DNA of 64,000 bases. It comes from Solimonas terrae (lineage in GTDB: Bacteria; Pseudomonadota; Gammaproteobacteria; Nevskiales; Nevskiaceae). The stretch covers positions 186,001 to 250,000 of the forward strand of contig NZ_JAAMOW010000008.1 of assembly GCF_011067135.1 (NCBI RefSeq), read 5' to 3'. Position 1 is the first letter of the stretch; each line of letters starts with the position of its first letter. Below the pieces are notes generated by a model. The model ran no database searches, was not told where the DNA came from, and saw only the letters and a list, made by a program, of their open reading frames with translations. The position numbers were made by a program, and so were the translations under genes. This document shows, piece by piece, positions 4,638 to 26,266 of the stretch.

Positions 4638-4674
4638 CGACATCAAAACAAGACGAACGCGGAGGAGATGGGGG

Positions 4675-6641: not shown

Positions 6642-6673
6642 CCCGCGCCACGGCAAGCACTCGACGTACGCCG

Positions 6674-8353
6674 GTGAAAGACGCTTCCCACGATGCGGAC
6701 CTGGCGCGGATGGCGTTCCTCGCGGCTGCGCTCTCGGGTCGCGACGTGCGCGTCGATCGCGTCGACGGTGGCGGCCTTGCCTGGACCGACGGGCGCGCCA
6801 TCCATGTCGATGCGGCGGCATCGAAAGACCTTCAACTGCGGCAACTCTGCGTGCAGAGTGCCCTGCTGGCTTCGGCCAGTCTGAACGGTGACATCGTGCG
6901 CCGACTGCGACGGCGCCCGGCACTCGCCAGGCGTTATCTGGCGGTCGAAGGGCATCGCGCACTTGCGGCGCTCGCCGACGTTCTGCCGCCCTCGATGCGG
7001 ACCTTGATCGACGCGTCTCGGGCGACGCACTCGCGCTCACCGGACGAGTCGCTGGCGGTCGCGCTGAGCAAGGTCGAGATCGAAGACGCGCCGCTTGCGT
7101 TCGGCGAGATTCGCGCGCGCGAGTGGCTTGCCGGCGAGCGCCGCGAAGGCGGCGCCGGCGCATCGGCCGGGTCGGAACATGTGCCGCGGCGGCAGAGGGA
7201 CGCGCGCGGCGAGTGGCCGGAGGTCGAAAGCGAAGACGCGGTCGACGATGTTGCCTCCAGCCCTGTCGGCGGTGGCGGTGGCATCGGCCGTCTGCTGCAG
7301 AACCTGCTGGAAAGGGTCCGCCAACTGAAAGGCGGGGGGGCGCCGGGCGCCGATGCCGCCACGCACCTGACGCGTTCGGGTTCGCGCGCCGGCGTCGTCG
7401 CAGTGCGATCCAGCCGGACCGCGGAAAGCGTCGACGACGCGTTCGGCAAGGGCACGGGCATCGCGTATCCGGAGTGGGACACGCATCGCGGAGGCTACCG
7501 GCCGGACTGGTGCACGGTGCAGGAGGCCGAACCGCCGATCGCCACGCATGCGACCGTCGCCTGGCTGGACGGGCATGAACTGCGGCGGCCGCTCGCGCGC
7601 TTGGGGATGGGCCTGGATCGCTTTCATCGCCAGCCGCAGGGCGATGACATCGACATCGATGCCGCCATCGAGATGCAGCTCGAGCGCCTGGCGGGCTCAT
7701 CGCCGCAGGAGGCCGTCTACGTTGAAAGTCAGCGCCATCGGCGCGACCTGTCCGTACTCGTCCTGCTCGACATCTCGGGGTCCGTTTCGCAAATCGGACC
7801 GGCCGGTACGGCGGTTCACGATCAGCAGCGCAGCGTCGCCGCCGCACTGCTCACGGTGCTGCACGAGATCGGCGATCGCGTGTCTCTTTATGCCTTCAGC
7901 TCGCGGGGCCGATCGGCCGTCGAATTGGTGCCCGTGAAGCGCTTCGACGACGCGCTGGACAGCCGCGTCATGAGCCGGCTCCGCAGTCTCGTGCCCGGCG
8001 CGTACTCACGACTGGGTGCCGCGATTCGTCATGGCACTCATCTCCTGCTGACGCGCGCGGGGACGCCGCGGAAGCTGCTCGTCGTGCTGTCCGACGGGCT
8101 GGCCTACGACCACGGTTACGAACCCGTTTACGGCGCAGCCGATGCGCGCCAGGCCCTTGGCGAGGCGCGACGCGATGGCGTGGCCTGTCTGTGCCTGAGT
8201 GTCGGGGCCGGGACCGATGTCGAGACTTTGCGACGTGTCTTCGGCAGCGCGGCGCACGCCACGGTCCCGAGCCCCGGGCAATTGCACCGCGTGGTCGGGC
8301 CTTTGTTCCGTTCGGCATTGCGCGGGGCGGAGGGTCGCCGGCGCGCAGCCTGA
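6674..8353 (+). CDS. NorD/CbbO-like VWA-domain protein (NorD1)
   Basis: A 559-residue cytosolic protein with a helical N-terminal half, a low-complexity linker rich in Gly, Arg and acidic residues (about 150-270), and a C-terminal von Willebrand A domain. The metal site DISGS is near residue 365 (SVLVLLDISGSVSQIG), followed by GAYSRLGAAIRH and VVLSDGLAYDHGYEP. The motif IAYPEWDTHRGGYRPDWC is characteristic of NorD. NorD and CbbO work with NorQ/CbbQ AAA+ ATPases to activate or metallate NO reductase or RuBisCO, neither of which is present here. The start is the GTG at 6674, 32 bases after SDR1. Its usual NorQ partner gene is displaced beyond the TonB receptor (11166-11981). A diverged paralogue is at 13186-14793. 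Confidence 0.85.
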   Translation: MKDASHDADLARMAFLAAALSGRDVRVDRVDGGGLAWTDGRAIHVDAAASKDLQLRQLCVQSALLASASLNGDIVRRLRRRPALARRYLAVEGHRALAALADVLPPSMRTLIDASRATHSRSPDESLAVALSKVEIEDAPLAFGEIRAREWLAGERREGGAGASAGSEHVPRRQRDARGEWPEVESEDAVDDVASSPVGGGGGIGRLLQNLLERVRQLKGGGAPGADAATHLTRSGSRAGVVAVRSSRTAESVDDAFGKGTGIAYPEWDTHRGGYRPDWCTVQEAEPPIATHATVAWLDGHELRRPLARLGMGLDRFHRQPQGDDIDIDAAIEMQLERLAGSSPQEAVYVESQRHRRDLSVLVLLDISGSVSQIGPAGTAVHDQQRSVAAALLTVLHEIGDRVSLYAFSSRGRSAVELVPVKRFDDALDSRVMSRLRSLVPGAYSRLGAAIRHGTHLLLTRAGTPRKLLVVLSDGLAYDHGYEPVYGAADARQALGEARRDGVACLCLSVGAGTDVETLRRVFGSAAHATVPSPGQLHRVVGPLFRSALRGAEGRRRAA

Positions 8354-11169: not shown

Positions 11170-11981
11170 TCATGGACATGCGCACTCCCCGAGCGAACAG
11201 CGACACGCGGCCCTACTACGTCGCCACCGGCGACGAGGAAAAGATCTTCAAGGCGGCATTCCGTCAGGGCCTGTCGATTCTTCTCAAGGGGCCGACGGGC
11301 TGCGGCAAGACCCGCTTCGTCGAAGCCATGGCGCACGATCTCGGACGGCCGCTGATCACGGTGTCCTGTCACGACGATCTGACGACGGCCGATCTGGTCG
11401 GGCGCTATCTTCTCAACGGCAACCAGACGCAATGGGTCGATGGCCCGCTGACCCGCGCCGTGCGTGAAGGCGCCATCTGCTATCTCGACGAAATCGTCGA
11501 AGCGCGACAGGACACGACGGTCGTTCTCCATCCGCTGGCCGACCATCGCCGGCAGCTGCCGCTCGAGCGGCTCGGCGTGACGCTGGAAGCGGCGCCCGGC
11601 TTCTGCCTCGTCGTCTCGTACAACCCCGGCTATCAGAGCGTGCTCAAGGATCTCAAGGATTCGACGCGGCAACGCATGGTGGCGCTGGAGTTCGGCTTTC
11701 CGTCGCCGCAGGTCGAGGAGGGCATCGTCGCAACCGAGGCCGGTATCGCGCCGGCGCAGGCGGAGAAACTGGTGCGTCTCGGGCAGGCGATACGCCGTCT
11801 CGAAAACGGCGGTCTGCGCGAAGTCGCGTCGACGCGTGTGCTGATTGCCGCCGGGCGCCTGGTGGCCGAGGGCTTGACACTCACGCAGGCCGCGCGCGCT
11901 GCGGTCGCCGGACCCCTGAGCGACGACGCGCGAGTCAGCGACGGCCTGAACAAGATGATCGACGTCTATCTCGGCGGCTAG
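11166..11981 (+). CDS. NorQ/CbbQ-like MoxR-class AAA+ ATPase (NorQ1)
   Basis: A 271-residue AAA+ protein. It has Walker A GPTGCGKT near residue 40, the CbbQ/NorQ-type segment SCHDDLTTADLVGRYLL, Walker B ICYLDEIVEAR, and VVSYNPGYQS with DSTRQRMVALEF further on. Members form rings that remodel or activate metalloenzymes together with a VWA partner. It begins at an ATG overlapping the TonB1 stop (ATGA); ATGs two and four codons later are also possible. It converges on the TetR2 gene with a 4-base overlap of stops. It closely resembles NorQ2 (14816-15646) through the ATPase core. The likely partner is NorD1, upstream of the receptor gene. The target enzyme is not identified; the A/B membrane proteins are candidates by location. 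Confidence 0.9.
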   Translation: MIMDMRTPRANSDTRPYYVATGDEEKIFKAAFRQGLSILLKGPTGCGKTRFVEAMAHDLGRPLITVSCHDDLTTADLVGRYLLNGNQTQWVDGPLTRAVREGAICYLDEIVEARQDTTVVLHPLADHRRQLPLERLGVTLEAAPGFCLVVSYNPGYQSVLKDLKDSTRQRMVALEFGFPSPQVEEGIVATEAGIAPAQAEKLVRLGQAIRRLENGGLREVASTRVLIAAGRLVAEGLTLTQAARAAVAGPLSDDARVSDGLNKMIDVYLGG

Positions 11982-12724
11982 TCGCCGCCGGATGCGCGCC
12001 GCTTCGTGGCGGGGGGGCTGCCGGCCTTGCCAGCGGGCCGGGCCTTGCTCGCCATCTTTCGGCGACTGCTGGACATGCCGAGGACGCGCCGCACGGTGAA
12101 CACGACATCACTCTTGTGGGCGGCCAGTTGTTCCGGTGCGAGCGGCTTGAACGAGCCGGCCGGAATCAGCGAGGCCAGCGCCGACACGTAGAACACGCTG
12201 GTACCGATCGCCGCGCTCGCGGCGTGGAACGGATCGTTGTGCAGCGGCTTGAGTTCGCCGCTCTTGCGGCCTTCCTCGAACATCGCCCAGGCCATGCCGA
12301 GCACGCGATCGGACGAGCGATAGATCAACTGGTTCGGGTGTTCCTCGGCGTCGGCGACATGACGCAGGATGAGTCGCGCGAGGGTCGGGCGCTCCTGCAG
12401 TCCGTCGACCCAGGCTTCGGCGGCGCGCTCGATCCGCTGCGTGATCGAGCCGGGCGGCGACATGGCTTCTTCCAGGCGCTTGGCGAGCGAGCCGAAGGCG
12501 GTCTCGAGCACGGCATCGTAAAGCGTCTGCTTGTCGCGAAAGTGGTAGAAGAGCGCCGGCCGGGTCAGGCCGACGGCGTCGGCGACATCTTCCAGGCGCG
12601 TGACGGCGTATCCGCGTCGTGCAAACAGATCTTCCGCGGCGGCGAGGATCGCGGCGCGTGAGCGCTCGGCGGGCTTCAGGGCTTTGGGGGGTTTCGTGCT
12701 GCTCACTTGATTCTGCTGATGCAC
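11978..12724 (-). CDS. TetR/AcrR-family transcriptional regulator (TetR2)
   Basis: A 248-residue regulator. The N-terminal HTH is RAAILAAAEDLFARRGYAVTR plus DVADAVGLTRPALFYHFRDK. The C-terminus carries a basic, Ala/Lys/Pro-rich tail after about residue 215 that TetR1 lacks. The start is a GTG at 12724. The gene is divergent from the membrane-peptide/NorD2/NorQ2/A1/B1 operon, with an inverted repeat and facing promoters between them, so it probably controls that operon and itself. It is a paralogue of TetR1, suggesting that the two arms of the island arose by duplication and respond to related ligands. The ligand is unknown. Confidence 0.9.
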   Translation of the reverse strand: MHQQNQVSSTKPPKALKPAERSRAAILAAAEDLFARRGYAVTRLEDVADAVGLTRPALFYHFRDKQTLYDAVLETAFGSLAKRLEEAMSPPGSITQRIERAAEAWVDGLQERPTLARLILRHVADAEEHPNQLIYRSSDRVLGMAWAMFEEGRKSGELKPLHNDPFHAASAAIGTSVFYVSALASLIPAGSFKPLAPEQLAAHKSDVVFTVRRVLGMSSSRRKMASKARPAGKAGSPPATKRRASGGD

Positions 12725-13028: not shown

Positions 13029-13127
13029 ATGCTCCTCGACATGCTTCGACTCGCCGTCGGCTTCGGCTCGGCCGGCCTGATCGTCTGGTTCTGGTACTGG
13101 TTCATGCAGGCCGTTGGCACGTTCTGA
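13029..13127 (+). CDS. 32-aa single-TM peptide, first of the membrane cassette (copy 1)
   Basis: A very short open frame with a GGAGG site five bases before its ATG. The product begins MLLDMLRLAVGFGSAGLIVW and ends in MQAVGTF, and is almost entirely one membrane helix with a Trp/Tyr-rich end (VWFWYWF). A second copy at 21632-21730 encodes a product of identical length with the pattern MLLDxLRL, FGS, LIV, FWYW, M and GTF conserved. Conservation between paralogous loci, the ribosome sites and first position after a promoter argue that it is a real subunit. It probably belongs to a membrane complex with A and B, as CydX or CcoQ do in oxidases; that is analogy only. Confidence 0.75.
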   Translation: MLLDMLRLAVGFGSAGLIVWFWYWFMQAVGTF

Positions 13128-13185
13128 GAGCGACTGCCTTGCGCCTCCCCGTCGTCCTTCTCATGGGCCTGCCACGGCGCGACTG

Positions 13186-14793
13186 ATGCCGGACTCGGGT
13201 CTCTATTCGGAGCCGCCGATGGAGCGGCCGGAAGGTGGCGCTGCCATGCCGATCGCGCCGCTTGCGGTCGGTGCCGCGCAGGCGCTGCGGGTCGAGCGTG
13301 GCTGCGCGCTGGTCGCCGCGGCCTTTTCGCAGGGCCATCGCGGCAGCGCCCGCATCATCTCCGGCGAGGCGCGCGGATTCGGTCTGAACGCGAGCCGCAG
13401 CGTGGTCCATATCCCGTACCCGGCGCTGGCGCCGGACTGGAACCTGCGGACCTGGACCTGCGGCGTCGCGCTGCAATGCGCGCCATCCAAGGACCGCATT
13501 GCCCATTACCCGCTGCAGGACCTGTCGCTGCGCGAGCGAATGGCGGTGGTGCTCGCCGAGGGCGAAGTGGCAATGGGCTGGGTGGCCGCGCAGTGGCCGG
13601 GGCTCATGTCCGAGATGCGTCGCCACCTGCCGGACCTGCAGGCTGCCGATCCGGAGCTGAGCGGTCCGGCGATCTTCGCGCGGGCGCAGGCGCTGGCGCA
13701 TTCGCAGCAGGACCTGGTCTGTCCGCCGCTGCTCGGCCACCTGCCGTTCGGCACGCCGGGACAGGCCGGTCTGCTCGCGGCGATCCGCCGGATGTACGGG
13801 CGCATGCCGTGGTCGAAACCGAATCAGCTCATCTCGCCGAAGTTCGACAGCATTCCGGTTGGCGGCGAAGGCAATGTCCGCAATCCGAACCTGCCGCCAC
13901 CGAGCCGGCCCGAAGAAGAGGACGTCGAGATTCGTGCCGATCAACGTGCCGGCATCCCGTATCCGGAGTGGAACTTCTGGAACGAAAGCTTTCTTCGCGA
14001 CCACGTCGCCGTGCTCGAACGCAAGCATGTACGCGTCGCGGACCGCTCACGGCCGGTGTCGGCGGACCTTCGCAAGTGGTTCGAGGAGCACACGCGTCGC
14101 GTGATGAAGAACGGCCTCGAAGATGGATCCGATCTCGACATCGATCGCTACATCGAGCACTACATCGATACGGCATGTGGCCGGCACTCCGAGGCGCGCG
14201 TGTTCCGCGATCTGCTGCCGGCATTTCGCGACGTGACGACGGCGCTGCTGCTCGACGGCAGCGCTTCGCTCGGCGCCGGCCGCGGCGGCGTCTTCCAGCT
14301 CGAACTCGCCTGCGCCGACGCGCTTTGCCATGCCATGACGCTGGCGCGCGAGCGGCACGGCCTGTTCCTGTTCAACGGCAATACCCGGCATCGGGTCGAC
14401 GTCACCTGCCTGAAGGACTTCGCCGATCCGCGCCTCGTGCTGCCGGGCGATCTCGGCCTGTCGGCGGGCGGCTACACCCGGCTGGGCGCCCCGCTGCGCC
14501 ACCTGACCAGCCGCCTGCTCGAACAGCCGGCGGAGCGCCGGCTGCTGATCGTCATCGGCGACGGTCTGATTTCCGACGAAGGCTACGAAGGCCGCTACGC
14601 GTGGGCCGACTCCGCACACGCCGTCGAAGAGGCCGAGGACGCCGGCGTATCGATCTACTACATCGGCGTCGGTCAGGTGCGGGTCGATCCGCTGCCGGAC
14701 GTGTTCGGTGCGCGCCGCTCGACGCGCATCACGCGCGTCGAGGATCTGCCGCGCGTGCTGGCCCGCGTCCACCGCGAGCTTGTCGACGCATGA
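13186..14793 (+). CDS. NorD/CbbO-like VWA-domain protein, diverged (NorD2)
   Basis: A 535-residue protein, paralogous to NorD1 but strongly diverged. It keeps the GIPYPEWNFWNE motif (compare IAYPEW in NorD1) and a C-terminal VWA domain with the metal site DGSAS near residue 355 (TTALLLDGSASLG), GGYTRLGAPLRH and VIGDGLISDEGYEG. The central acidic/basic linker of NorD1 is shorter here. The start is uncertain: ATG 13186 has no strong ribosome site, and a TTG at 13114 or an ATG at 13219 is possible. It lies between the 32-aa peptide gene and NorQ2, inside the cassette operon, so its client is probably the A/B membrane complex. That role follows from NorQD/CbbQO precedent and position. Confidence 0.85.
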   Translation: MPDSGLYSEPPMERPEGGAAMPIAPLAVGAAQALRVERGCALVAAAFSQGHRGSARIISGEARGFGLNASRSVVHIPYPALAPDWNLRTWTCGVALQCAPSKDRIAHYPLQDLSLRERMAVVLAEGEVAMGWVAAQWPGLMSEMRRHLPDLQAADPELSGPAIFARAQALAHSQQDLVCPPLLGHLPFGTPGQAGLLAAIRRMYGRMPWSKPNQLISPKFDSIPVGGEGNVRNPNLPPPSRPEEEDVEIRADQRAGIPYPEWNFWNESFLRDHVAVLERKHVRVADRSRPVSADLRKWFEEHTRRVMKNGLEDGSDLDIDRYIEHYIDTACGRHSEARVFRDLLPAFRDVTTALLLDGSASLGAGRGGVFQLELACADALCHAMTLARERHGLFLFNGNTRHRVDVTCLKDFADPRLVLPGDLGLSAGGYTRLGAPLRHLTSRLLEQPAERRLLIVIGDGLISDEGYEGRYAWADSAHAVEEAEDAGVSIYYIGVGQVRVDPLPDVFGARRSTRITRVEDLPRVLARVHRELVDA

Positions 14794-14815
14794 ACCCAGC
14801 CAGCAAGAGGTGAAG

Positions 14816-15646
14816 ATGAGGAGAGATTTCTATCAGGTCAGCGGCAGGGAAGTCGACCTGTTCCGGCAGGCCTACGCGCAGCGGGTTCCGGTGATGCTCA
14901 CCGGGCCGACCGGTTGCGGCAAGACACGCCTCGTGGAGTACATGGGCGGCGTGCTGAATCGCCCGGTGGTGACGATCAGCTGCCACGACGATCTGACCAG
15001 TTCCGACCTGGTCGGCCGCTATACGGTTTCAGGCGGCGACGTCGTCTGGCACGACGGGCCGCTGACGCGCGCCGTCAAGGAAGGCGCGATCTGCTACATG
15101 GACGAGGTCGTCGAGGCACGCCACGACTCGCTGGCCGTGCTGCACTCGCTGACCGACCATCGCCGCACGCTGTTTCTCGATCGTGCCGGCGCAGTCGTCG
15201 AAGCGCCCGATGCCTTCATGCTCGTGTGTTCGTACAACCCGGCCTACCGCAGCTCGCTGAAGGAACTGAAGCCTTCATTCCGCCAGCGCTTCGTCACCGT
15301 GGCGATGACGTATCTGCCGGCCGAGCTCGAAGTGCAGGTGCTCGTCTCCGAATCGGGCGTCGATCGGGCCGCGGCACAGCGGCTGGTCAAATGCGCGAGC
15401 AGCATCCGCAACGCCGACGACGTCCTCCATTTCGAACCGCCGTCGACACGCGTGCTGGTGACCGCCGCGAAGCTGGTCGCCGCCGGGGCCAGCGAACTCG
15501 AAGCTGCCGAAGTGAGCATCCTCGCGCCGCTCAGCAACGACGGCGCGATCACCGAAGGTCTGCGCGAGCTGGCCGCGGCCAGCCTTCTCGGCGCGAACAC
15601 CACAGCGCCCGACCGGCGCGTCATCGCGGGAGGAGTGAAGTCATGA
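14816..15646 (+). CDS. NorQ/CbbQ-like MoxR-class AAA+ ATPase (NorQ2)
   Basis: A 276-residue AAA+ ATPase. Walker A GPTGCGKT is near residue 29, then SCHDDLTSSDLVGRYTV, Walker B ICYMDEVVEAR, and VCSYNPAYRSSLKELKPSFRQRF. The core resembles NorQ1 almost motif for motif. The start ATG at 14816 has AGAGGTGA upstream. Its stop overlaps the ATG of the 44-aa membrane peptide (ATGA), so it is translationally coupled to the membrane subunits. Together with NorD2 it likely forms an activase that uses ATP to remodel a metal-dependent target, by precedent of NorQ with cNOR and CbbQ with RuBisCO. Neither classical target is encoded here. Confidence 0.92.
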   Translation: MRRDFYQVSGREVDLFRQAYAQRVPVMLTGPTGCGKTRLVEYMGGVLNRPVVTISCHDDLTSSDLVGRYTVSGGDVVWHDGPLTRAVKEGAICYMDEVVEARHDSLAVLHSLTDHRRTLFLDRAGAVVEAPDAFMLVCSYNPAYRSSLKELKPSFRQRFVTVAMTYLPAELEVQVLVSESGVDRAAAQRLVKCASSIRNADDVLHFEPPSTRVLVTAAKLVAAGASELEAAEVSILAPLSNDGAITEGLRELAAASLLGANTTAPDRRVIAGGVKS

Positions 15647-15777
15647 GTGGCAGTTCGACATCTGATCAGGACCGCAAGCGCAAGCGCGCCATGATCGTTT
15701 TCCAGATCGTGATCTACAGCTGGATCCTCGGCACCTTCCTCGTCCAGCTTTATCTGAAATCCATCAGCGACTGGTAG
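15643..15777 (+). CDS. 44-aa single-TM peptide of the membrane cassette (copy 1)
   Basis: A 44-residue product with a basic cytoplasmic N-terminus (QDRKRKRAMIVFQIV) and one membrane helix ending in FLVQLYLKSISDW. The ATG overlaps the NorQ2 stop, and the A1 gene begins seven bases after its own stop. The paralogue at 21787-21921 has the same length and pattern (QDR, basic run, MIVFQIV, Y, FL, QL, final W), which supports it as a true gene despite its size. It is probably a small structural or assembly subunit of the same complex as A and B. I know of no named family. Confidence 0.8.
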   Translation: MSGSSTSDQDRKRKRAMIVFQIVIYSWILGTFLVQLYLKSISDW

Positions 15778-15784
15778 ACCGATC

Positions 15785-16480
15785 ATGACGACCCTCACGA
15801 AATCCGCAGGCTTCGGCGGCTACGACGCCCATCAGATCGCAAGTCAGGCGGCGCAACGCCGCGCCGACTACTGGATGATCTCCGGCACGCTGCTGATGGG
15901 CTGCGCCGTGCTCGGCCTCATCGGCCTGCCGCTGTTCTTCCGCGGCATCTGGCTGCAGAGCCAGGCGGCGAAAGCCGGCCTGACGATGCGGCCGACCATC
16001 GTCACACTGATCGGTTACCTGGTCATCATCGATTCGGCGCTGAACAGCATCGGCTGGACGCTGGATCTGTTTGCGCACCACACCCTGATCAACCGCGTGC
16101 TGACCACCGGCTGGGGTGCGATGTTCGATGGCGGCTACTTCTGGCACTACAACGAGCTGTGGCTCGGCGGTGCCGGCGCGCCGGGCGAGAAAGCCTGGGA
16201 AATCTCGCTGATCCCCGTGCTGTTCTGCGCGCGCATGGCGGCGGCAATCGGACTGCTGCAGATGAAGCGCTGGGGCCAGCAGTGGCTGATCGTCACCTGC
16301 TGGATGGGGATGATCGTCTGGTTTGGCTACAACACCAACATGACGATCTTCGCCGACGTGCGCTATTCGCACATCACGTTCCCGGTCTGGGGCTGGTGGC
16401 TCTACGACATCTGGTACATCACGCCGTTCCTGTCGCTGCCGTATCTGCACACGGTCAATCGCGAAATCTTCTCCGACTGA
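15785..16480 (+). CDS. Cassette membrane protein A1, unknown family
   Basis: A 231-residue protein with about five membrane helices (roughly 32-53, 69-90, 139-158, 165-185, 200-221). It aligns without gaps to A2 (21931-22626), same length, about 70% identical by my hand count. Strictly shared segments include [13 protein letters not shown] (113-126), [18 protein letters not shown] and the final [11 protein letters not shown]. Shared polar residues that could bind metal are His16, His99, His121, His222, Glu124, Asp83, Asp115, Asp191 and Asp208. It is preceded by NorQ2 and the 44-aa peptide and followed by B1. I do not recognise it as PmoA/PmoC, AlkB, NorB or another known oxygenase or oxidase subunit. 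A membrane metalloenzyme subunit is an inference. Confidence 0.9.
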
Positions 16481-16515
16481 GCGCAGGCAAGACGAAACCC
16501 GACAGGAAACATTCG

Positions 16516-16965
16516 ATGAATACCAAAGCCAAGAAGGATCTGCCGCTCGGCACGACCGAGACCTATTCGACGATGCACAAGTGGCTGCAGCGCGCCCTGT
16601 TCGTCTGTCTGACCTGCCTGGTGATCGAAGGCGCGTTCACGCTGCCGGGTATCGCCATCTGGATGGGCTGGCCGACGCTGTCGCTGCAGCAGATCTGCAG
16701 CGAACTCGAGAAGGTCCGCTACTCCGACGACAGCCGCGAATGCATCTACCCGTACCCGCTGTTCGGGCCTTCGGAAGGGGCCGGGCAGACGACCGCCAAG
16801 GATGTCTGGGGCATCCAGCCCAAACCCTTGTACCGCCGCATCGGCTTTCGCGATCTCGTCCGGTTCCGCGACGAACGACTCGCGCGACAGGCCGCGGAAA
16901 AGAAAAAGCAGACCGAAGCGCCGGACGATGGAACGCAAGCGCCGGTAGCCGCGCCGGCGCCGTGA
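16516..16965 (+). CDS. Cassette membrane protein B1, unknown family
   Basis: A 149-residue protein with a basic N-terminus, one membrane helix (about 26-50, [21 protein letters not shown]) and a C-terminal domain probably on the periplasmic side by the positive-inside rule. The region after the helix is highly conserved with B2 (22665-23132): [36 protein letters not shown]. It has a shared pair of cysteines (61 and 76) that could form a disulfide or bind metal. The tail is Lys/Ala/Pro-rich and differs between copies. It lies 35 bases after A1. It is probably the partner of A1 in a membrane complex. No known family is recognised. Confidence 0.85.
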
Positions 16966-17187
16966 TGGGCGCTTCGCGGCGTGCGTGCCGTGTGCGGATC
17001 GCGTTCCTGAATCGATCCATCGACGGCGCAGGGCGCGTGGATCAAGGCGACAGGGAGCGGCTCGAAGCAAACGAAGCCGATCGGGCGAAGACCTGACGGT
17101 GGTTGGTGGCATCGCATCAGCGTGCGAGACGAGGACGGCAGCATCCGCGAGCGGGCATGCCGAGCGAAATCAGGGAGGGGAGGCGAG

Positions 17188-19782
17188 ATGGCAATGAGGA
17201 TTGTGGTGAAGACCACAGCGGTGATCGCGGGTGCGGGGCTGCTGCTGGGGGCAATCGGCCGTGTGCACGCGCAGGACGCGGCGACCCTGCCGGCGGCAAC
17301 ATCAGGTCGTGGCGAACAGGCGCCGGTAGCCGACGACGCAGCCGCGTCGCCGGCCGCGGGCGCCGACGCCGGTCCGTTGCCGACCCTTGCGGTGGCGCCG
17401 CTCGACGGTGCCGATGCTAGGGGCGCGCTGCCGGTGCAGAACGAGAAGCCCGGCAGGATCGCGGAGATCCTGGTCACCGCCCGGCGCGTCGCCGAAAGCC
17501 AGCAGGAGGTTCCGATCGCGATCACGACCATGAGCGCCGCCGACCTGCAGCGCGAGGCGATCAATTCGCCGCAGGATCTGCAGGGCCGTGTGCCGTCACT
17601 GGTGGTCAGCACCAGTTCGCAGATGCGCAATACCGAATCGCCGGCGATCCGCGGGCAGGGCCAGGACTTCGGCACCAGCCCCGGCGTCATCATCTATTTC
17701 GCCGAAGTGCCGCTGCCGGGCGATCCGATCGCCAGCAATCAGGGTGGCCCCGGCAAATTTCTCGACCTGTCCGACATCCAGATCCTCAAGGGTTCGCAAG
17801 GCACCTTGTTCGGCCGCAATACCACCGGTGGCGCGATGCTGCTGGAACCGACCCGGCCCAAGGACGCGATCGAGGGCTCGCTGCGCGCCGAATACACGAG
17901 CTATTCCGGGCAGGGTTATGAAGGCGTCTTCAACACCCCCTTGTTCAGCGACCGCCTGCTGCTGCGCGCAGCGGCCAAGTACTTCGATCGCGACGGCTTC
18001 ACGCACGACGTCGTCACCGGCAAGGACTACGACAACAAGCACTTCTGGACCGGGCGCCTGGGTCTGACCTGGCGGCCGTTCGATCCGGTCGAGAACTACC
18101 TCGTCGGCTACTACACCGACAGTCAGGACAACGGTACCGGTGCGGTGATCGAGGACATCAATCGCGAGGAACTCAATCAGGGCATCGCGGCGTCGATCGG
18201 GCTCGGCGTGCTGTCGCAGATTCCCGGGCTGGATCTGAGCCAGACGGCCAATCTCGGCTGCCTGGTGCTCGATACGTTCGGGCCGTCAAAGAATTGCGGC
18301 CAGGACATTCTCGACGAACAGCATGCGCGAGGGGACCGGCATGTGCAGCTCAGCGCCGATCCCGACGACATTCTCAAGACCGGTGGCGTGATCGATCAGC
18401 TCAATGTCGACATCACCGACGAAATGAGAATCCGCAACATCGCCAGCTACTCGACGTTCAAGCACCACTATCGCTGGGACATCGACGGCTCGCGCGCGGC
18501 GTTCACCGACTACAACCCCGACGACGATCATTTCGAGGCCGATCTCGACAACTACACCGAAGAGCTGCAATTGCAGGGAACGTCGCTGAACGGGCTGCTG
18601 CGCTTCGCGCTCGGGGGCTACTACGAGCACGCGAACATCGATGGTTACTCGCAGGCAACCGCGCTGTTCATCCAGAGCGTGCTCGCGCAGTACCAGATGA
18701 CGAAGGAGTCCTACGCACCTTATGCGCAGGGCACGCTCGATCTCGGCTATCTGGCGGACGCGCTCAGCGGTTTGAGTCTGACCGCCGGCGCGCGCTACAC
18801 GACCGACAAGACCCACATCGACGCGACCTTCGTGCAGACCGCGCTTGGCACACTGAAGCTGGTCGACGACGCGTTCTCGAATGACATCAAGGATTCCGCG
18901 CCGACCTACACGGTCGGCCTCGACTACAAGTTCGGCGCGAACCTCGTCTACGGCAAGGTCAGCCGCGGCTACAAGACCGGCGGCGAGGCGCCGGATTCCG
19001 TCAATCCGGATCATCGCGTCTACAAGCCGGAATACGTCACCAACTACGAAATCGGCCAGAAGTCCGATTTCGAGATGTTCGGCATGCCGGCGCGCCTGAA
19101 CACCAGCGCCTACTACACCGACTACAGTGACTTGCAGAAGAGCGCCACCGACACCTATCTGCGCCCGAACGCCGTGAACCTGACGCCAACGGTCGGCGTG
19201 ACGGTCTACAACGTCGGCAAGGCGTCGATCGCCGGTTTCGAGCTGGAAGGCACGCTCAAGCCGACCGACTCGCTGACGCTGATCGCCACCTACGGCTACA
19301 CGAAGGCCGAATACAAGAAATTCGATCTGCTGATCGGCGACATCCTGCCGCACCTCGATTGCACCGGGACCCATGTCCAGAAAGGCAACGTCGCCGATCT
19401 GCATTGCGTGCCGGTGCAGAACACGCCGCGTAACCAGTTCAGTGTCTCGGCGCGCTATCTGTGGCCGTTCGATCCGTCGTACGGCGACATCGAGAGCTCG
19501 CTGACCTATGCCTGGACCGATCGACGCTACGGCGCGCAGACGACACTGCCCGAAGACGAACCCGGCTCCTGGTTGCCGGCCTACGGCCTGCTCAATGGCA
19601 GCATCCACTGGGACAAGATCTTCGGTTCGGCTTTCGATGTGCAGCTCTACGGCACCAATCTGACCAACGAGAAATACCGGCTGTCGAACAGCAGCATCTG
19701 GCATCTGACGTTCTTCCGCAGCTCGGTCTATTCCGAGCCGCGCATCATCGGCGTGCAGATGGGCTATCGCTGGGGCCAATAG
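17188..19782 (+). CDS. TonB-dependent outer-membrane receptor (TonB2)
   Basis: An 864-residue receptor. A signal peptide ends at VHA-QD (about residue 27), an Ala/Asp-rich linker of about 65 residues follows, then the plug (EILVTARRVAESQQEVPIAI, LKGSQGTLFGRNTTGGA) and a beta-barrel ending GVQMGYRWGQ. The start ATG at 17188 follows a strong GGGAGGGGAGG site. It shares the linker and plug layout of TonB1 but is clearly diverged. A 222-base gap separates it from B1, in which I see no gene. It is followed closely by a 40-aa membrane peptide and the second AveC-like gene. It probably imports the same class of hydrophobic substrate as TonB1; the ligand is unknown. Confidence 0.92.
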   Translation: MAMRIVVKTTAVIAGAGLLLGAIGRVHAQDAATLPAATSGRGEQAPVADDAAASPAAGADAGPLPTLAVAPLDGADARGALPVQNEKPGRIAEILVTARRVAESQQEVPIAITTMSAADLQREAINSPQDLQGRVPSLVVSTSSQMRNTESPAIRGQGQDFGTSPGVIIYFAEVPLPGDPIASNQGGPGKFLDLSDIQILKGSQGTLFGRNTTGGAMLLEPTRPKDAIEGSLRAEYTSYSGQGYEGVFNTPLFSDRLLLRAAAKYFDRDGFTHDVVTGKDYDNKHFWTGRLGLTWRPFDPVENYLVGYYTDSQDNGTGAVIEDINREELNQGIAASIGLGVLSQIPGLDLSQTANLGCLVLDTFGPSKNCGQDILDEQHARGDRHVQLSADPDDILKTGGVIDQLNVDITDEMRIRNIASYSTFKHHYRWDIDGSRAAFTDYNPDDDHFEADLDNYTEELQLQGTSLNGLLRFALGGYYEHANIDGYSQATALFIQSVLAQYQMTKESYAPYAQGTLDLGYLADALSGLSLTAGARYTTDKTHIDATFVQTALGTLKLVDDAFSNDIKDSAPTYTVGLDYKFGANLVYGKVSRGYKTGGEAPDSVNPDHRVYKPEYVTNYEIGQKSDFEMFGMPARLNTSAYYTDYSDLQKSATDTYLRPNAVNLTPTVGVTVYNVGKASIAGFELEGTLKPTDSLTLIATYGYTKAEYKKFDLLIGDILPHLDCTGTHVQKGNVADLHCVPVQNTPRNQFSVSARYLWPFDPSYGDIESSLTYAWTDRRYGAQTTLPEDEPGSWLPAYGLLNGSIHWDKIFGSAFDVQLYGTNLTNEKYRLSNSSIWHLTFFRSSVYSEPRIIGVQMGYRWGQ

Positions 19783-19852
19783 GCGCATATCGGCCGGCCG
19801 GCGGCATCGCGCGTCGATGCCTGCCGTCGGTCCCTCGTGGAGATTCGAAATC

Positions 19853-19975
19853 GTGGGCGCTTTCATCATGCTGGGCACGCTGTTCGGACTGATCGTCCTG
19901 ATCTTTGCGCTGGTGCTGCGCTACGACCCGCAGGCGCGCCGGACGAGTGTGCAGGGCGGACGCAAGGCCTCATGA
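19853..19975 (+). CDS. 40-aa single-TM peptide preceding AveC2
   Basis: A short frame from GTG 19853 (or ATG 19868) with GGAG about ten bases upstream. The product has one strong membrane helix (MLGTLFGLIVLIFALVLRY) and a basic tail (RRTSVQGGRKAS). The final ATGA overlaps the start of the AveC2 gene, so translation of the two is coupled. It is unlike the 32- and 44-aa peptides of the A/B cassettes. I infer a small partner of AveC2. The evidence is the overlap, the ribosome site and the clean helix; no second copy is present to confirm it. Confidence 0.55.
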   Translation: MGAFIMLGTLFGLIVLIFALVLRYDPQARRTSVQGGRKAS

Positions 19976-20754
19976 ACGAACTGACGCCACTGCTGCGCGC
20001 TTCGATCAACTTCGCCTACGTCGGTGCGGTGGTGTTCGTTGCCATCGGCCTGCTGCTGAGCTATCGCCGTGGTCGTCCGCACGCCTTGCTGCTGGTCTGC
20101 ATCTCGGCGATTTCGTTCTCGTGGATCGAGGCGCCCTACGATTGGGCGATGTACGCGCAGTTTCCGCCGGCGATTCCGCGCATGCCGGCATGGTGGCCGC
20201 TGAACATGACCTGGGGCGGCTTGCCGGCGTCGGTGCCGCCGGGCTACATCGCTTATTTCGTGCTGCCTGCGGTGATCGGTGTCGCGCTCGGGCGCCGGCT
20301 GATTTCGCGTTACGGCTGGCGCCCACCAACCACGTTCCTGAGCGTCGGTCTCATTGTCGGCTGTCTCTGGGCGCTGCTGTTCAACGCCGTACTGGGCGCG
20401 CAGCTCGGCGTGTTTCATTACGGGCGCGTGATTCCCGGGCTGGCGCTCTGGGCAGGCACGAAGCATCAGTACCCACTCTATGACGCGCTGGCGATGGGGG
20501 TACAGATGATGGTGTTCACCTATCTGCTCGGCCGCACCGACGGACAGGGGCGCAACCCGGTCGAAGCCTGGGCCGATGCCAGAACGAAGAGCCGCGTGCG
20601 CGCATCGCTGCTGTCGATCGCAGCGATCATCGTGATCGGGCACGGCGTCTATCTTTCGGTGTTCGCGCCGCATCTGGCGACCAAGCTGATGGGCCTGGTG
20701 ACGGTCGGGCCGACGACCCCGCTGTTCCAGGGCGTGCCGAATCAGCCGCTTTAG
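19972..20754 (+). CDS. AveC-like integral membrane protein (AveC2)
   Basis: A 260-residue protein with about seven hydrophobic helices. The segments between them (WIEAPYDWAMYAQFPP, MPAWWPLNMTWGGLP, VPPGYIAYFVLPA) are of the type I associate with spirocyclase AveC-family proteins, and the layout of an aromatic/Pro-rich loop after the second helix parallels WQDPIMNWAPYAVYNP in AveC1. It is shorter than AveC1 by about 110 residues. It overlaps the upstream 40-aa peptide gene and converges on the TetR3 gene 55 bases away. The molecular function is unknown in this setting; chemistry on the imported substrate or a membrane-scaffold role are both possible. Confidence 0.6.
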   Translation: MNELTPLLRASINFAYVGAVVFVAIGLLLSYRRGRPHALLLVCISAISFSWIEAPYDWAMYAQFPPAIPRMPAWWPLNMTWGGLPASVPPGYIAYFVLPAVIGVALGRRLISRYGWRPPTTFLSVGLIVGCLWALLFNAVLGAQLGVFHYGRVIPGLALWAGTKHQYPLYDALAMGVQMMVFTYLLGRTDGQGRNPVEAWADARTKSRVRASLLSIAAIIVIGHGVYLSVFAPHLATKLMGLVTVGPTTPLFQGVPNQPL

Positions 20755-20809
20755 ACAGTATGACTACCGTGGTCAGAGGCACTGACCTCCGCGGAGGCCG
20801 TAACGCGGG

Positions 20810-21469
20810 TTAGCGCCCGGACGGCGGCGAGCGGCGTCTTGCCCGACTGCGTGCAGGCGTGACGGCGGCATTGCCGATGGTCGTGACCTTGTTGATCACC
20901 GGCATGACGACCCCTCGCGACAGTGCCCTGGCGATGACATCGATCGACGGCGGCGCCGGATGTTTCAGCCACCAGGTCAGCATTTCGATCGTGCCGCCCA
21001 CCAGCAGGCGCACGCCGAGCTCGCCGATCGCCCGGCCGTCGGCCGGCAGGCGGTCCGCAACCAGTTCCATCGCAATCCGCAGCAATTCTTCTCGCACATC
21101 GCCGGCGGCACCACCGGTGAGCAGCGTCGACCACAAGGCGCGGTTGTCATCGGCGTATGTGAACAACGCCTTGCAGGCTGCCTGCGACCCCCGGGTGTCC
21201 ATCAGCGGCAGTGCCAGTGCGATCAGGCGCTGCACTTCCTCGGCGGCAAGATCGTGAAGCAGCGCTTCCTTGCTCGGATGGTGCCGATAGAACGTGGCAT
21301 GGCCGATCCCGGCGGTGGCGGCGATTTCGCGAATGCCGATCTCGTCCAGTGAGCGCGTCTCCAGCAGCGACAGCAGGGCGCCCCGCATGGCCTCGCGCGT
21401 GCGCAGGGACCTTGCGTCGTCGGCCGTGGACAGGTGCTGCCTGAATTTCTTGTTGGTGCGGACTTTCAT
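20810..21469 (-). CDS. TetR-family transcriptional regulator (TetR3)
   Basis: A 219-residue TetR protein with an Arg/Lys-rich N-terminus. The HTH follows (TREAMRGALLSLLETRSLDEI, REIAATAGIGHATFYRHHPSKEALLHDL), then a helical ligand-binding domain. It is not a close relative of TetR1 and TetR2: the ATFYRHHPSKEAL recognition helix differs. It is divergent from the second membrane cassette. A perfect 9-bp inverted repeat lies between them (21558-21578). It probably represses the cassette and itself. The C-terminal 25 residues are Arg/Ala/Thr-rich and look disordered. Confidence 0.9.
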   Translation of the reverse strand: MKVRTNKKFRQHLSTADDARSLRTREAMRGALLSLLETRSLDEIGIREIAATAGIGHATFYRHHPSKEALLHDLAAEEVQRLIALALPLMDTRGSQAACKALFTYADDNRALWSTLLTGGAAGDVREELLRIAMELVADRLPADGRAIGELGVRLLVGGTIEMLTWWLKHPAPPSIDVIARALSRGVVMPVINKVTTIGNAAVTPARSRARRRSPPSGR

Positions 21470-21553
21470 GCGCTCCGGCCGGGCGTCAGATGTGCCGGGA
21501 CCTCGTGTCCCGAGTGTCGATCATAGCGGCCGCGAAGCGCTTGCGGTCCGTCA

Positions 21554-21583
21554 TTACTATGAGACACAATGTCTCATAACGAA
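21554..21583. promoter_or_regulatory. Operator and overlapping divergent promoters for TetR3 and cassette 2
   Basis: A perfect inverted repeat, TATGAGACA-CAA-TGTCTCATA, covers 21558-21578. Rightward, TTACTA (21554-21559) and TAACGA (21577-21582) are 17 bases apart. Leftward, TTCGTT and TAGTAA flank the same repeat with an 18-base spacer. The operator therefore fills the spacer of promoters on both strands. The promoter boxes are weak matches, but the repeat is exact and well placed. Confidence 0.6.
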
Positions 21584-21631
21584 AGACGGCGACATGATCG
21601 CCCGTTCCCGGCATGGACAAGGAGGCGAGCG

Positions 21632-21730
21632 ATGCTGCTGGATATCTTGCGACTGGTCGTCACGTTCGGATCGGTCGTGCTGATCGTTGCGTTCTGGTAC
21701 TGGCTGATGGACAACGCCGGGACGTTCTGA
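21632..21730 (+). CDS. 32-aa single-TM peptide of the membrane cassette (copy 2)
   Basis: A paralogue of the peptide at 13029-13127, identical in length. It begins MLLDILRLVVTFGSVVLIVA and ends in MDNAGTF, with the same FWYW aromatic cluster. It has an AAGGAGG site six to seven bases before the ATG. It is the first gene after the TetR3 operator. Here no NorD/NorQ genes intervene, and the 44-aa peptide gene follows after 56 bases. The role is unknown; I infer a small subunit of the A2/B2 complex. Confidence 0.75.
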   Translation: MLLDILRLVVTFGSVVLIVAFWYWLMDNAGTF

Positions 21731-21786
21731 GGCTTCGCCGGATCGATACGACGATCGGACGGCAGGAAAATAGGGGAGGACTGCGC

Positions 21787-21921
21787 GTGAAGAATCCCGT
21801 GATCAGTGAGCAGGATCGCCGTCGCAGACGATCGATGATCGTCTTCCAGATTGTCGCGTACGGCTTCCTGCTGACCATGTTCCTGATCCAGCTGCACATG
21901 GCATCGGTCCGCAACTGGTAG
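21787..21921 (+). CDS. 44-aa single-TM peptide of the membrane cassette (copy 2)
   Basis: A paralogue of the peptide at 15643-15777, with the same length, basic stretch (EQDRRRRRSMIVFQIV) and final Trp (MASVRNW). The GTG start at 21787 has a GGGAGGA site seven bases upstream. It is followed after nine bases by A2. Conservation in both cassettes supports it as a real small membrane subunit. Confidence 0.8.
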   Translation: MKNPVISEQDRRRRRSMIVFQIVAYGFLLTMFLIQLHMASVRNW

Positions 21922-21930
21922 GAGGCGCGC

Positions 21931-22626
21931 ATGACAACGAACACGATGGCGGCCGGCGCCGGGGCCTACGATACGCATCAGCAGCGCAGCCGCGCCGCGC
22001 AGTGGCGCGCCGACAAATGGATGATGGTCGGCGTCTTCTTCATGGGCACGGCCGTGCTCGGTCTGATCGGTCTGCCGTTCTTCCTGCGCGGCCTGTCGCT
22101 GCAGATGCGCGCACAGAAGGCCGGTTTCACCGTCAGGCCGATCATGGTCACGCTGATCGGTTATCTGGTTGCGGTCGATTCGGCGCTGAACAGCCTGGGC
22201 TGGGCGCTCGATCTGATCGGCAATCACACGCTGCTCGCGCGCGTGTTCCTGATGGCCTGGGGCAACATGTTCGATGGCGGCTATTTCTGGCACTACAACG
22301 AACTGTGGATCGGCGGCGCCAGTGCGCCCGGCGAGAAAGCCTGGGTGGTCGCGCTGTTGCCGCTGATGTTCTCGATGCGCATTGCTGCGGCCATCGCGTT
22401 TCTGCAGATGAAGCGCTGGGGCCAGCAATGGCTGGTCGTGACCTGCTGGTTCGGCGTCATCGCCTGGGCTGGCTATGTCACCAACATGACGATCTTCGCC
22501 GACGTGCGCTATGCCGGCGTCGTGTTTCCGGTCGTTGGCTGGTGGCTGTACGACATCTTCTACATCACGCCGTTTCTCGCCATCCCGTACCTGCATACCG
22601 TCAATCGCGAGATCTTCTCCGACTGA
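21931..22626 (+). CDS. Cassette membrane protein A2, unknown family
   Basis: A 231-residue protein, gap-free paralogue of A1 (about 70% identical by hand count). The helices fall at the same places. [31 protein letters not shown] and [11 protein letters not shown] are invariant, as are the candidate metal ligands His16, His99, His121, His222 and several Asp/Glu residues near helix ends. Variation is concentrated within the helices (for example 31-40 and 141-150), as expected when a scaffold is conserved and the lipid-facing or substrate pocket diverges. A strong AGGAGG site precedes the start. It is followed by B2 after 38 bases. Function unknown; a membrane metalloenzyme subunit is inferred. 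Confidence 0.9.
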   Translation: MTTNTMAAGAGAYDTHQQRSRAAQWRADKWMMVGVFFMGTAVLGLIGLPFFLRGLSLQMRAQKAGFTVRPIMVTLIGYLVAVDSALNSLGWALDLIGNHTLLARVFLMAWGNMFDGGYFWHYNELWIGGASAPGEKAWVVALLPLMFSMRIAAAIAFLQMKRWGQQWLVVTCWFGVIAWAGYVTNMTIFADVRYAGVVFPVVGWWLYDIFYITPFLAIPYLHTVNREIFSD

Positions 22627-22664
22627 CGACCGCGTCTGCTGCCCATGTCCGAGAGGAATACGAG

Positions 22665-23132
22665 ATGAAAGACTCAGCGAAGGAACTGCAACCAGGTACG
22701 ACCGCCGCATTTGCCGGCATGCACCAGTGGCTGCAGCGCGGCCTGATCGTCTGCCTCGTGGCGCTGGTCCTCGAAGGAGCACTGACGTTTCCGCTGCTGG
22801 CCATCTGGTACGGATGGCCGACACTCTCCCTGCAGCAGATCTGCAGCGAGTTCGAGAAGATCCGCTTCAACGACGAGTCGCGCGAATGCAAATATCCGTA
22901 CCCGCTGTTCGCACCGGCGGAAGGCGCCGGGCAGACCACGGCGCAGGATACATGGGGCATACAGCCGCGACCGCTGTATCAGCGTGTCGAATTTCGCGGC
23001 CTGATTCATCGGCGAGATGCACGACTTGCGCGGCTGGCGGCCGCAGCCGCTGCCGGCGCGGGGGAGCGGGCTGAGCAGCCTGCGCCCGCGCCGGCCCGGC
23101 CTGTGGCGGCGCCGCAGCCTCCGCAGAACTGA
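22665..23132 (+). CDS. Cassette membrane protein B2, unknown family
   Basis: A 155-residue paralogue of B1. One membrane helix (about 24-50) is followed by the conserved block [48 protein letters not shown]. Cys60 and Cys75 match Cys61 and Cys76 of B1. The tail is Ala/Pro-rich (AEQPAPAPARPVAAP) and probably disordered. It lies 38 bases downstream of A2 and 18 bases upstream of an epimerase gene, in one operon. It probably pairs with A2; its periplasmic domain could hold a disulfide or a metal. Confidence 0.85.
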   Translation: MKDSAKELQPGTTAAFAGMHQWLQRGLIVCLVALVLEGALTFPLLAIWYGWPTLSLQQICSEFEKIRFNDESRECKYPYPLFAPAEGAGQTTAQDTWGIQPRPLYQRVEFRGLIHRRDARLARLAAAAAAGAGERAEQPAPAPARPVAAPQPPQN

Positions 23133-25629: not shown

Positions 25630-25640
25630 GCCGGCGTCGC

Positions 25641-26078: not shown

Positions 26079-26266
26079 GGTGACGGAGCTTAACGATTTC
26101 GCGCCGCCGTTTCGGTGCGGCATCGGATCGAGGCGTTCTCTGCGGGCGATATTTACTACATGTCAGGATGGCGGCGTGCCTATAGCATGCAGCAGCCGGT
26201 CCGCAGCGTGACAACATTGGACCGCGACGATCCGGGGGGATCGCAAAGAAAATGGGGAGTTCAGGG

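Follow-up and report, generated by a model that had tools for sequence, protein, structure and literature searches.

The data support the existence of a conserved membrane system made of several parts, two of them genuine micropeptides, which has no name in Pfam or NCBIfam and is encoded twice in the window (i.e., the whole 64-kb stretch of DNA that was analyzed). Our main reading, with a rough probability of 0.38, is an EBP-like membrane enzyme that has three subunits of one span each, would be matured by its own NorQ/NorD pair (probably by metal insertion) and would act on a hydrophobic isoprenoid/steroid-like substrate. Literature searches, covering open-access papers, found no published account of this cassette.

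Copy 1 (13029-16965) is a tight operon with the order p32-norD2-norQ2-p44-A-B and copy 2 (21632-23132) has the order p32-p44-A-B, all these genes being on the + strand. Copy 1 comprises: (i) p32 (13029..13127), a 32-aa one-span micropeptide with a conserved FWYW and a C-terminal GTF, under purifying selection; (ii) norD2 (13186..14793), encoding the VWA-domain partner of NorQ2 and a member of the cassette; (iii) norQ2 (14816..15646), encoding a MoxR/CbbQ/NorQ-type AAA+ ATPase; (iv) p44 (15643..15777), a 44-aa one-span micropeptide recognized from selection and from its presence in other loci, which overlaps the 3' end of norQ2 by 4 nt; (v) A1 (15785..16480), 7 nt after p44, a 231-aa polytopic membrane protein and, from profiles and a fold match, a candidate EXPERA-like catalytic subunit; (vi) B1 (16516..16965), a one-span subunit with invariant residues in an alignment of 29 B proteins. 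In copy 2, p32b (21632..21730) and p44b (21787..21921, GTG start) are each based on an ORF, on selection and on comparison with other loci; they are followed by the second A subunit, A2 (21931..22626), and the second B subunit, B2 (22665..23132). The two copies are 70% identical for A and 61% for B, and share 22/32 residues for p32 and 22/44 for p44. The earlier note had described a duplicated four-subunit set in the same order, and the eight subunit ORFs plus norD2/norQ2 are indeed found at these positions. It had also given A as a five-helix protein, which agrees with the scan: A2 has five hydropathy segments, but only three exceed the same threshold in A1. The hydropathy scan gives a single segment for each of B1, B2 and the p32 and p44 of copy 1.

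A scan of bacterial genome contigs gave a set of 78 loci, drawn from the best 80 of 272 relatives. It must be noted that Mycobacteriales account for most of these loci and that those from Mycobacteriales are mutually related; L003, L004, L012, L014, L019, L020 and L035 are outside this group. G563 (a weak match, 22 bits) and G861 (one with a stop) were kept out of the family. Among the loci from these best 80 relatives, the order p32-NorD-NorQ-p44-A-B is kept in 73 of 78, and this recurrence means that the order is not due to chance. The hosts of the six-gene order are Sinimarinibacterium, Stenotrophobium, Pseudomonadales, a Myxococcales MAG, mycobacteria, Nocardia and Rhodococcus. NorD2/NorQ2 do lie between p32 and p44 of copy 1, as had been noted, but they are a conserved part of the cassette in these 73 loci and not an insertion. 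Of the other five loci, L031 has all six genes in a rearranged order; L018 and L030 lack NorQD and have p32-p44-A-B; L046 and L047 are both short and lie at the end of a contig. Considered separately, p32 is present in 77, p44 in 76, B in 76 and NorD in 74 of the 78 loci (same best 80 of 272); the peptides, whose absence from orthologous loci had been named as a refuting observation, are thus found there. The parts of the cassette are still linked when A is only 29-51% identical: L136 contains p32, a short B, A, NorD and NorQ, L137 contains B-A-NorD-NorQ, and in L138 A lies beside p44 and p32. A NorD relative is present in all nine genomes searched, five of which have a copy of A without adjoining NorQD (the genome of the window, G450, G452 and the hosts of L018 and L030).

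p32 and p44 are real genes, i.e., they are in frame, under purifying selection and next to a distant A, since both also adjoin an A of only 29% identity. The median pN/pS is 0.231/0.471 for p32 (79 sequences) and 0.235/0.528 for p44 (76 sequences), with pN lower than pS in 96.9% and 99.8% of pairs, respectively, the pairs being not independent. None of the four peptides has a family near the curated cut-off in Pfam or NCBIfam, and a match of p44 with a poxvirus entry family (E 0.084) was taken as chance. The proposed system would offer a testable role for two conserved micropeptides.

Protein B is characterized by an invariant Glu38, located in the span, and by invariant Cys61 and Cys76 (29 aligned B proteins). 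B1 and B2 have no match near the curated cut-off in Pfam and NCBIfam; a match of B1 with a hypothetical-protein model (E 0.0096, 15.7 bits for a cut-off of 286) was taken as chance. The profile of B gives two chance matches only in the PDB (E 0.36 and 0.68), and the 29 B members match two Pfam families, with one member each and a best E of 0.048.

The assignment of norQ2 and norD2 is clear. NorQ2 matches PF07728 (AAA_5; E 1.5e-36, 125.9 bits) and PF08406 (CbbQ_C; E 3.7e-22, 78.8 bits), both over the cut-off, and NorD2 matches PF00092 (VWA) with 28.4 bits for a cut-off of 23.8. As in the nitric oxide reductase operon, an AAA+ protein (AAA_5 plus CbbQ_C) and its VWA partner stand beside a presumed membrane target; on the contrary, the pair of the cassette lies between p32 and p44 of another membrane protein, its neighbours being p32, p44, A and B, with no norB/norC. 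The three COX1-family genes of the genome are on other contigs. In the available part of PMC13036017, NorQD is described as required for iron insertion into membrane-bound cNOR, and CbbQO as a Rubisco activase. The window contains a second pair. NorQ' (11166..11981, +), a NorQ-type ATPase different from NorQ2, is 80% identical to a protein of the Myxococcales cassette locus L012 and 65-66% identical to those of L014 and L049. A NorD-type protein, NorD', is contained in the frame 6269..8353 (+; bounds of the frame, not gene start) and is 61% identical to the NorD' of L003.

Comparison of sequences and profiles tips slightly towards a very remote kinship of A with the EXPERA/EBP (sterol isomerase) superfamily (PF05241: the sterol Delta8-Delta7 isomerase EBP, TMEM97, TM6SF), with weak support and mixed controls. 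A1 and A2 match no Pfam family at E<=10 and no NCBIfam family above the cut-off; likewise, the PDB sequence search gives no match at E<=10, whether with A1 or with the profile of A. The statement that none of the four subunits is recognized as a known family is upheld as far as Pfam and NCBIfam cut-offs are concerned (A1, A2, B1, B2 and the peptides), but must be softened inasmuch as A may have a remote EXPERA relative. The best of ten A proteins scanned with PF05241, that of L136, has E 0.0015 and 19.3 bits, below the Pfam cut-off of 25.7. Over 18 whole genomes PF05241 recovered no A locus and had other matches, mostly weak, in 8 of the 18. With a bacterial EXPERA profile (20 proteins), A of L138 is placed above 1,192 of 1,193 neighbour proteins, the one outranking it being a true EXPERA protein; A of L136 obtains only 5.1 bits, below four decoys. 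The reverse search (profile of 30 A proteins) fails to set EXPERA apart: no EXPERA protein exceeds 5.9 bits, which is less than a fatty acid desaturase (15.6) and a reversed A (7.7) obtain.

Three divergent A proteins match EXPERA profiles. Pairwise profile comparison of A with EXPERA gives E 0.00034 for L138 alone, 0.0058 for L137 alone and 0.0008 for four divergent A proteins (range for divergent members: 0.00034-0.011), then 0.02 for 30 sequences and 0.06 for 26 sequences, the close A proteins alone reaching only 0.06. The central hairpin is paired identically in 6/6 comparisons of A with the full EXPERA set, and A outscores six other multi-span families as well as reversed A. Shuffles that keep hydropathy reach the A-EXPERA score in 0/200 (4 sequences), 1/200 (10) and 4/200 (30) cases; however, AveC-like proteins score about as well as A (3/200), so this test may be lenient. 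The AveC-like spirocyclases (PF17198) belong to the same cluster and are also polytopic, but evidence for a single family is absent: a kinship with A was rejected, the profile comparison giving a probability of 3.7%.

The structure model of A1 is poor (pLDDT 68). With this model, human EBP is the first of 351 chains aligned by VIA-align (Z 8.2, 173 residues, rmsd 5.4), but a designed four-helix bundle (8.2) and rhodopsins (7.8 and 7.5) tie with it; according to the tool's own warning, a Z at this level can be chance. The best match in Foldseek has E 1.2 and is unrelated. Ten diverse A proteins all have Asp115, which in 8 of 18 overlapping comparisons is aligned with the acid that EXPERA proteins conserve best (equivalent to EBP Asp108). 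The position of EBP Glu80 corresponds to the invariant Asn87 of A (a spacing match, the register being set by hand from the numbering of PMC4263179), and by its residues A is thus not an EBP. His99, Asp115, His121 and Glu124 are invariant in 71 close A proteins; His121 and Glu124 are not conserved in L136 and L137, both with NorQD. The density of invariant polar residues in A suggests an active site.

Set beside EBP, A has a similar size and number of spans and may also share an outer-loop Asp and the pattern of the hairpin that joins spans three and four. It differs by a score below the Pfam cut-off, by Asn instead of Glu80, by a greater distance from the Asp to the following span, and by the partners encoded beside it (B, p32, p44, NorQD). 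EBP is not known to require any such partner. Bacterial EXPERA proteins have been reported in actinobacteria (available parts of PMC9903846 and PMC4818103); they would belong to the same superfamily if A is EXPERA, and the hosts are partly the same, but they were named by Pfam or homology.

In the mechanism that we propose, A, B, p32 and p44 would form one small membrane complex of about eight spans. A would be the catalytic subunit, a far EXPERA/EBP relative with five spans. Its polar Asp83, Asn87 and Asp115 would lie on the outer side of the membrane, in the place taken in EBP by His76, Glu80 and Asp108. The role of B and of the two micropeptides would be to stabilize the shape of A and to form the lining of the substrate entrance. 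NorQ2/NorD2 would be a dedicated AAA+/VWA pair remodelling the assembled complex and, by analogy with cNOR, might insert a metal, possibly close to His99, Asp115 and His121. Once matured, the complex would convert a hydrophobic isoprenoid/steroid-like compound, by a double-bond shift or by a metal-assisted oxidation or hydration, in a pathway to which the P450, SDR and AveC-like proteins encoded nearby would also belong. Copy 2 would be a paralogue for another substrate or step, presumably borrowing NorQ2D2.

The metal is the point on which the closest rival departs. An EXPERA-like isomerase or sterol-binding complex without metal, NorQ2D2 only remodelling or activating it mechanically as CbbQO does with Rubisco, is rather unlikely. 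It would agree with the EBP determinants listed in the available part of PMC4263179 (side chains, no metal), with the variation of the candidate ligands His121/Glu124 and with the Rubisco activase role of CbbQO (PMC13036017, available part); against it, the linkage to a NorQ/CbbQ-type pair is strict and, Glu80 being not kept, the known acid-base set of EBP is incomplete. Still less probable is a membrane oxygenase or oxidoreductase that needs a metal and has no kinship with EXPERA; it would be an analogue of copper membrane monooxygenases or cNOR, with subunits of independent origin. The dedicated NorQD pair, the four residues invariant in the 71 close A proteins, the two invariant Cys of the 29 B proteins and the weakness of the EXPERA signal are in its favour, but A and B match no AmoC, COX1 or other oxidase family, and no haem or copper motif was recognized by eye. 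Particulate methane/ammonia monooxygenase is a membrane enzyme with a metal site, as the complex would be (its metal being a proposal); it differs in that AmoC is absent: PF04896 has no match in A1 and A2 (Pfam, E<=10) nor in this genome (E<=10), and a relation was rejected.

A transporter or lipid-handling channel for a hydrophobic compound, e.g., from TonB receptors into the cell, is quite improbable. The small polytopic subunit with single-span helpers would suit it, and two large TonB-receptor-like frames, seen by eye, adjoin the copies; on the other hand, a transporter match, which would have spoken against the initial proposal, was found by none of Pfam, NCBIfam, Foldseek and VIA-align, the four subunits have no energising domain, and the cassette also occurs in mycobacteria, which are not known to have TonB receptors. 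The weak EXPERA/EBP link of A rather favours an enzyme acting on hydrophobic rings. Least probable of all is a non-catalytic scaffold that would assemble, or feed substrate to, the adjacent P450 or AveC-like enzyme. In its favour, 47 of 85 neighbourhoods contain a P450-family gene, which in L003, L004 and L141 comes directly after B; against it, this count is weak, mycobacteria having many P450s, and the invariant polar residues of A suggest an active site.

Returning to the NorQD-matured EBP-like enzyme, a broader formulation can be put forward tentatively: a new class of NorQD-matured membrane metalloenzyme, in which a one-span partner and two obligatory micropeptides would accompany a five-span catalytic subunit, either derived from EXPERA or wholly new. 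Occurring in many mycobacteria and in some bacteria of soil and sea, it would perform steroid/terpenoid ring chemistry on the outer side of the membrane. If true, this would be (i) an unstudied membrane enzyme system in many mycobacteria, Nocardia and some Gammaproteobacteria; (ii) a new kind of target for MoxR/VWA chaperones; (iii) provided that the EXPERA link is true, a sterol-isomerase fold within a multi-subunit, chaperone-linked bacterial complex.

The cassette is surrounded by P450, SDR and acyl-CoA ligase genes. The cytochrome P450 (2517..3872, -), whose best solved relatives are CYP101-type, is 74-76% identical to the P450 encoded immediately after B in L003, L004 and L141. AveC-like protein 1 (PF17198; 4507..5784, +) and the SDR-family oxidoreductase (5781..6641, +) are 66-81% and 69-83% identical, respectively, to their counterparts in L003, L004, L141 and L012. 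AveC-like protein 2 (PF17198; 19837..20754, +) has a 72% identical protein in L003 and a 65% identical one in L045. In the available part of PMC5819568 an AveC-family protein is given only as a taxonomic marker. A cupredoxin-like gene and its multi-span neighbour (24151-26123), considered as copper partners, were rejected, being absent from 85/85 other sources compared. Each copy has a divergent TetR-family regulator (PF00440), at 11978..12724 (-) for copy 1 and 20810..21469 (-) for copy 2. In the vicinity of one cassette there is a true EXPERA gene (L041:15108-15722).

The two cassettes claimed in the earlier note are both present in the window, i.e., p32-norD2-norQ2-p44-A1-B1 at 13029-16965 and p32b-p44b-A2-B2 at 21632-23132, A being a 231-aa polytopic membrane protein, B a one-span protein of ~150 aa, and p32 and p44 one-span micropeptides of 32 and 44 aa. 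NorQ2 is a MoxR/CbbQ/NorQ-type AAA+ ATPase and NorD2 its VWA partner. The norQ2 and p44 genes overlap by 4 nt and p44 is separated from A1 by 7 nt, as expected for a single co-translated operon. Identity between copies is 70% for A1/A2 and 61% for B1/B2, with 22/32 identical residues in p32 and 22/44 in p44. Searches of the own genome (4.42 Mb) recovered A1 and A2 and no third A gene. The note recognised none of the four subunits as a known family, and the scans agree: no Pfam or NCBIfam model is above cut-off for A1, A2, B1 or B2, and comparison of A and B by sequence with solved structures gave nothing below E 0.3.

A profile of A1 and A2 was run against 84,980 species genomes and retrieved 272 relatives, the best 80 of which lie in 78 loci. 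The order p32-NorD-NorQ-p44-A-B is intact in 73 of these 78 loci; the exceptions are one locus with all six genes in a different order (L031), two without NorQD (L018, L030) and two short ones at contig ends (L046, L047). An additional A is found upstream of the cassette in 53 of the 78. Both micropeptides are under purifying selection: at least 90% of the sequences keep FWYW and the GTF end in p32, and Q21, Q35 and the terminal Trp in p44. These data establish a conserved chaperone-linked four-subunit membrane cassette without a family of its own; the finding is real and merits follow-up.

A was found in 6/85 genomes of the host's order and, by a single-sequence search, in 1/369 of its class (its own genome). 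It is matched in 20/201 genomes from the family that includes M. kyorinense (a weak match among the 20 is not counted as real), in 10/396 from the phylum of that species (again with one weak match) and in 2/282 from the phylum to which the Myxococcales MAG belongs. The cassette, being patchy across genomes, thus reads as an optional module, probably horizontally transferred.

More divergent A proteins are found in other gene arrangements. In L137 (A 51% identical) the row is B, A, NorD, NorQ. In L136 (35%) it is p32, a 101-aa frame, A, NorD, NorQ, the frame having the B span without the later part bearing Cys61 and Cys76. L138 (8730-10383), close to a contig end, has an A 29% identical followed by p44- and p32-like peptides; the two small proteins ahead of this A cross the membrane once or twice, as judged by eye. 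A distant A (35% identical) is carried by a Mycobacterium branderi plasmid (L086), for which an incomplete gene table lists no NorQ/NorD within 15 kb. The 82-aa protein adjoining this A (L086:14738-14986) resembles, by eye, p32 fused to the B span. With NorD2 as query, a NorD relative was found in 9/9 genomes searched (33-66% identical outside the own genome), five of which carry an A copy without adjacent NorQD; A copies may share one NorQD.

Iron insertion into membrane-bound cNOR requires NorQD (PMC13036017, PMC9976466). In the present case the operon of a different membrane protein has a NorQ/NorD pair as a constant member. By analogy with cNOR, the cassette complex likely, but not certainly, contains metal, since CbbQO, described as a Rubisco activase (PMC13036017), is a pair of this type with another mode of action.

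A first hint of a relative for A came from structure comparison. VIA-align ranks human EBP (sterol Delta8-Delta7 isomerase, EXPERA superfamily, PF05241) first for the A1 model among 351 Foldseek-ranked chains, with Z 8.2 and rmsd 5.4 over 173 residues (model 40-231 on EBP 34-219); the model is poor (pLDDT 68), VIA-align warns that a Z of such size can arise by chance, and the score does not separate EBP from a designed four-helix bundle (8.2) or from rhodopsins (7.8, 7.5). Among ten diverse A proteins scanned against Pfam, that of L136 matches PF05241 over residues 140-228 (E 0.0015; 19.3 bits vs. a cut-off of 25.7).

Bacterial EXPERA were collected by searching 188 genomes from the phylum that includes the Myxococcales MAG, 25 of which hold one above the Pfam cut-off, and 20 proteins were aligned. 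Matches were obtained in 26 of these genomes and number two or three in 10 of them. The 20-protein profile gives 11.4 bits (E 0.013) for L138 A, with a DUF2628 protein close behind (10.7 bits). Neighbour proteins (1,193) served as decoys, and the only one to outscore L138 A is the true EXPERA protein of L041 (163.9 bits); L136 A reaches 5.1 bits, with four decoys higher. This clear EXPERA of Mycolicibacterium stellerae (L041:15108-15722; PF05241 E 1.9e-12) lies ~4 kb downstream of the A cassette.

In pairwise profile comparisons with 21 EXPERA proteins, E is 0.00034 for L138, 0.0058 for L137 and 0.011 for L136 with L086; it is 0.0008 for these four A combined, 0.02 for 30 sequences and 0.06 for 26 close ones. 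The hairpin between the third and fourth spans is paired identically in 6/6 comparisons with the full EXPERA set, and A outscores six other multi-span families and reversed A. Column shuffles within hydropathy classes reach the score in 0/200, 1/200 and 4/200 cases for the 4-, 10- and 30-sequence sets. Against the relation, the reverse search with a 30-protein A profile gives at best 5.9 bits for EXPERA, less than for a fatty acid desaturase (15.6) or reversed A (7.7), and a PF05241 search of 18 genomes found no A locus. The AveC-like family comes next after A in the multi-family comparison; its profiles match bacterial EXPERA weakly (3/200 shuffles reach the score), so that the test is permissive unless AveC-like proteins are remote relatives as well.

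EBP determinants include His76, Glu80, Asp108, Glu122, Asn193 and Trp196, the conserved acids being at positions 80 and 108 (PMC4263179). By hand and after the fact, the spacing 4 and 28 is seen in both A (Asp83-Asn87-Asp115) and EBP (His76-Glu80-Asp108), and the A motif (W/Y)-G-x-x-F-Asp115 resembles (W/Y)-G-x-x-F-Asp-Pro of several bacterial EXPERA. Automatic alignment pairs Asp115 with the EXPERA acid in 8/18 comparisons, which share sequences. Asn87 and Asp115 are invariant in 10/10 aligned A proteins; A thus lacks the acid found at Glu80 of EBP and, judged by residues, is no EBP. A set of 71 close A proteins keeps His99, His121 and Glu124 without exception as well, His121 and Glu124 varying in divergent A, including the NorQD-bearing L136 and L137. 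The five hydrophobic segments of A2 and the placement of Lys/Arg (by eye) suggest an outer N-terminus, an inner C-terminus and the conserved loop 91-139 outside, in agreement with the five-span model described for EBP (PMC4263179); an Arg pair close to the N-terminus speaks against this orientation. With the evidence for and against weighed together, the probability that A is related to EXPERA is put at about 55%. The best-supported, still unproven, reading is that the cassette is an EXPERA-like enzyme acting on hydrophobic ring compounds.

P450s are common in mycobacteria, and weight is thus given only to close orthologues. Gene clusters among 85 neighbourhoods (simple gene caller, single linkage, Pfam naming one or few members each) comprise TetR (in 68), P450 (47), SDR (42), a DapB-like dehydrogenase (31) and acyl-CoA ligase (24). 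The window, L003 (Sinimarinibacterium flocculans DSM 104150), L004 and L141 share a P450 (74-76% identical) together with AveC-like and SDR genes; in L012 (Myxococcales MAG) the AveC-like protein and SDR are 66-69% identical and the P450 is more distant. The best solved relatives of the window P450 are CYP101 (camphor-type), CYP125 and CYP142 being lower in the list.

A second NorD occurs in the window and these four loci (51-61% identical to that of L003), and NorQ' of the window has counterparts in L012 (80%), L014 and L049 (65-66%). The run in L012 is cassette, NorD', NorQ', AveC-like, SDR, P450, as if AveC-like proteins had a chaperone pair of their own. This NorQ'/NorD' pair (in the window 11166-11981 and frame 6269-8353) is distinct from NorQ2/NorD2, and in L012 it directly precedes the AveC-like gene.

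On the minus strand, the window also encodes a cupredoxin-like protein (25641-26123; weak nitrosocyanin match, E 0.0013) and, adjoining it, a 492-aa multi-span protein of no family (24151-25629); neither turned up in any of the other 85 sources used for comparison. The two AveC-like proteins of the window (19837-20754 and 4507-5784) are 25% identical and fall in a single cluster.
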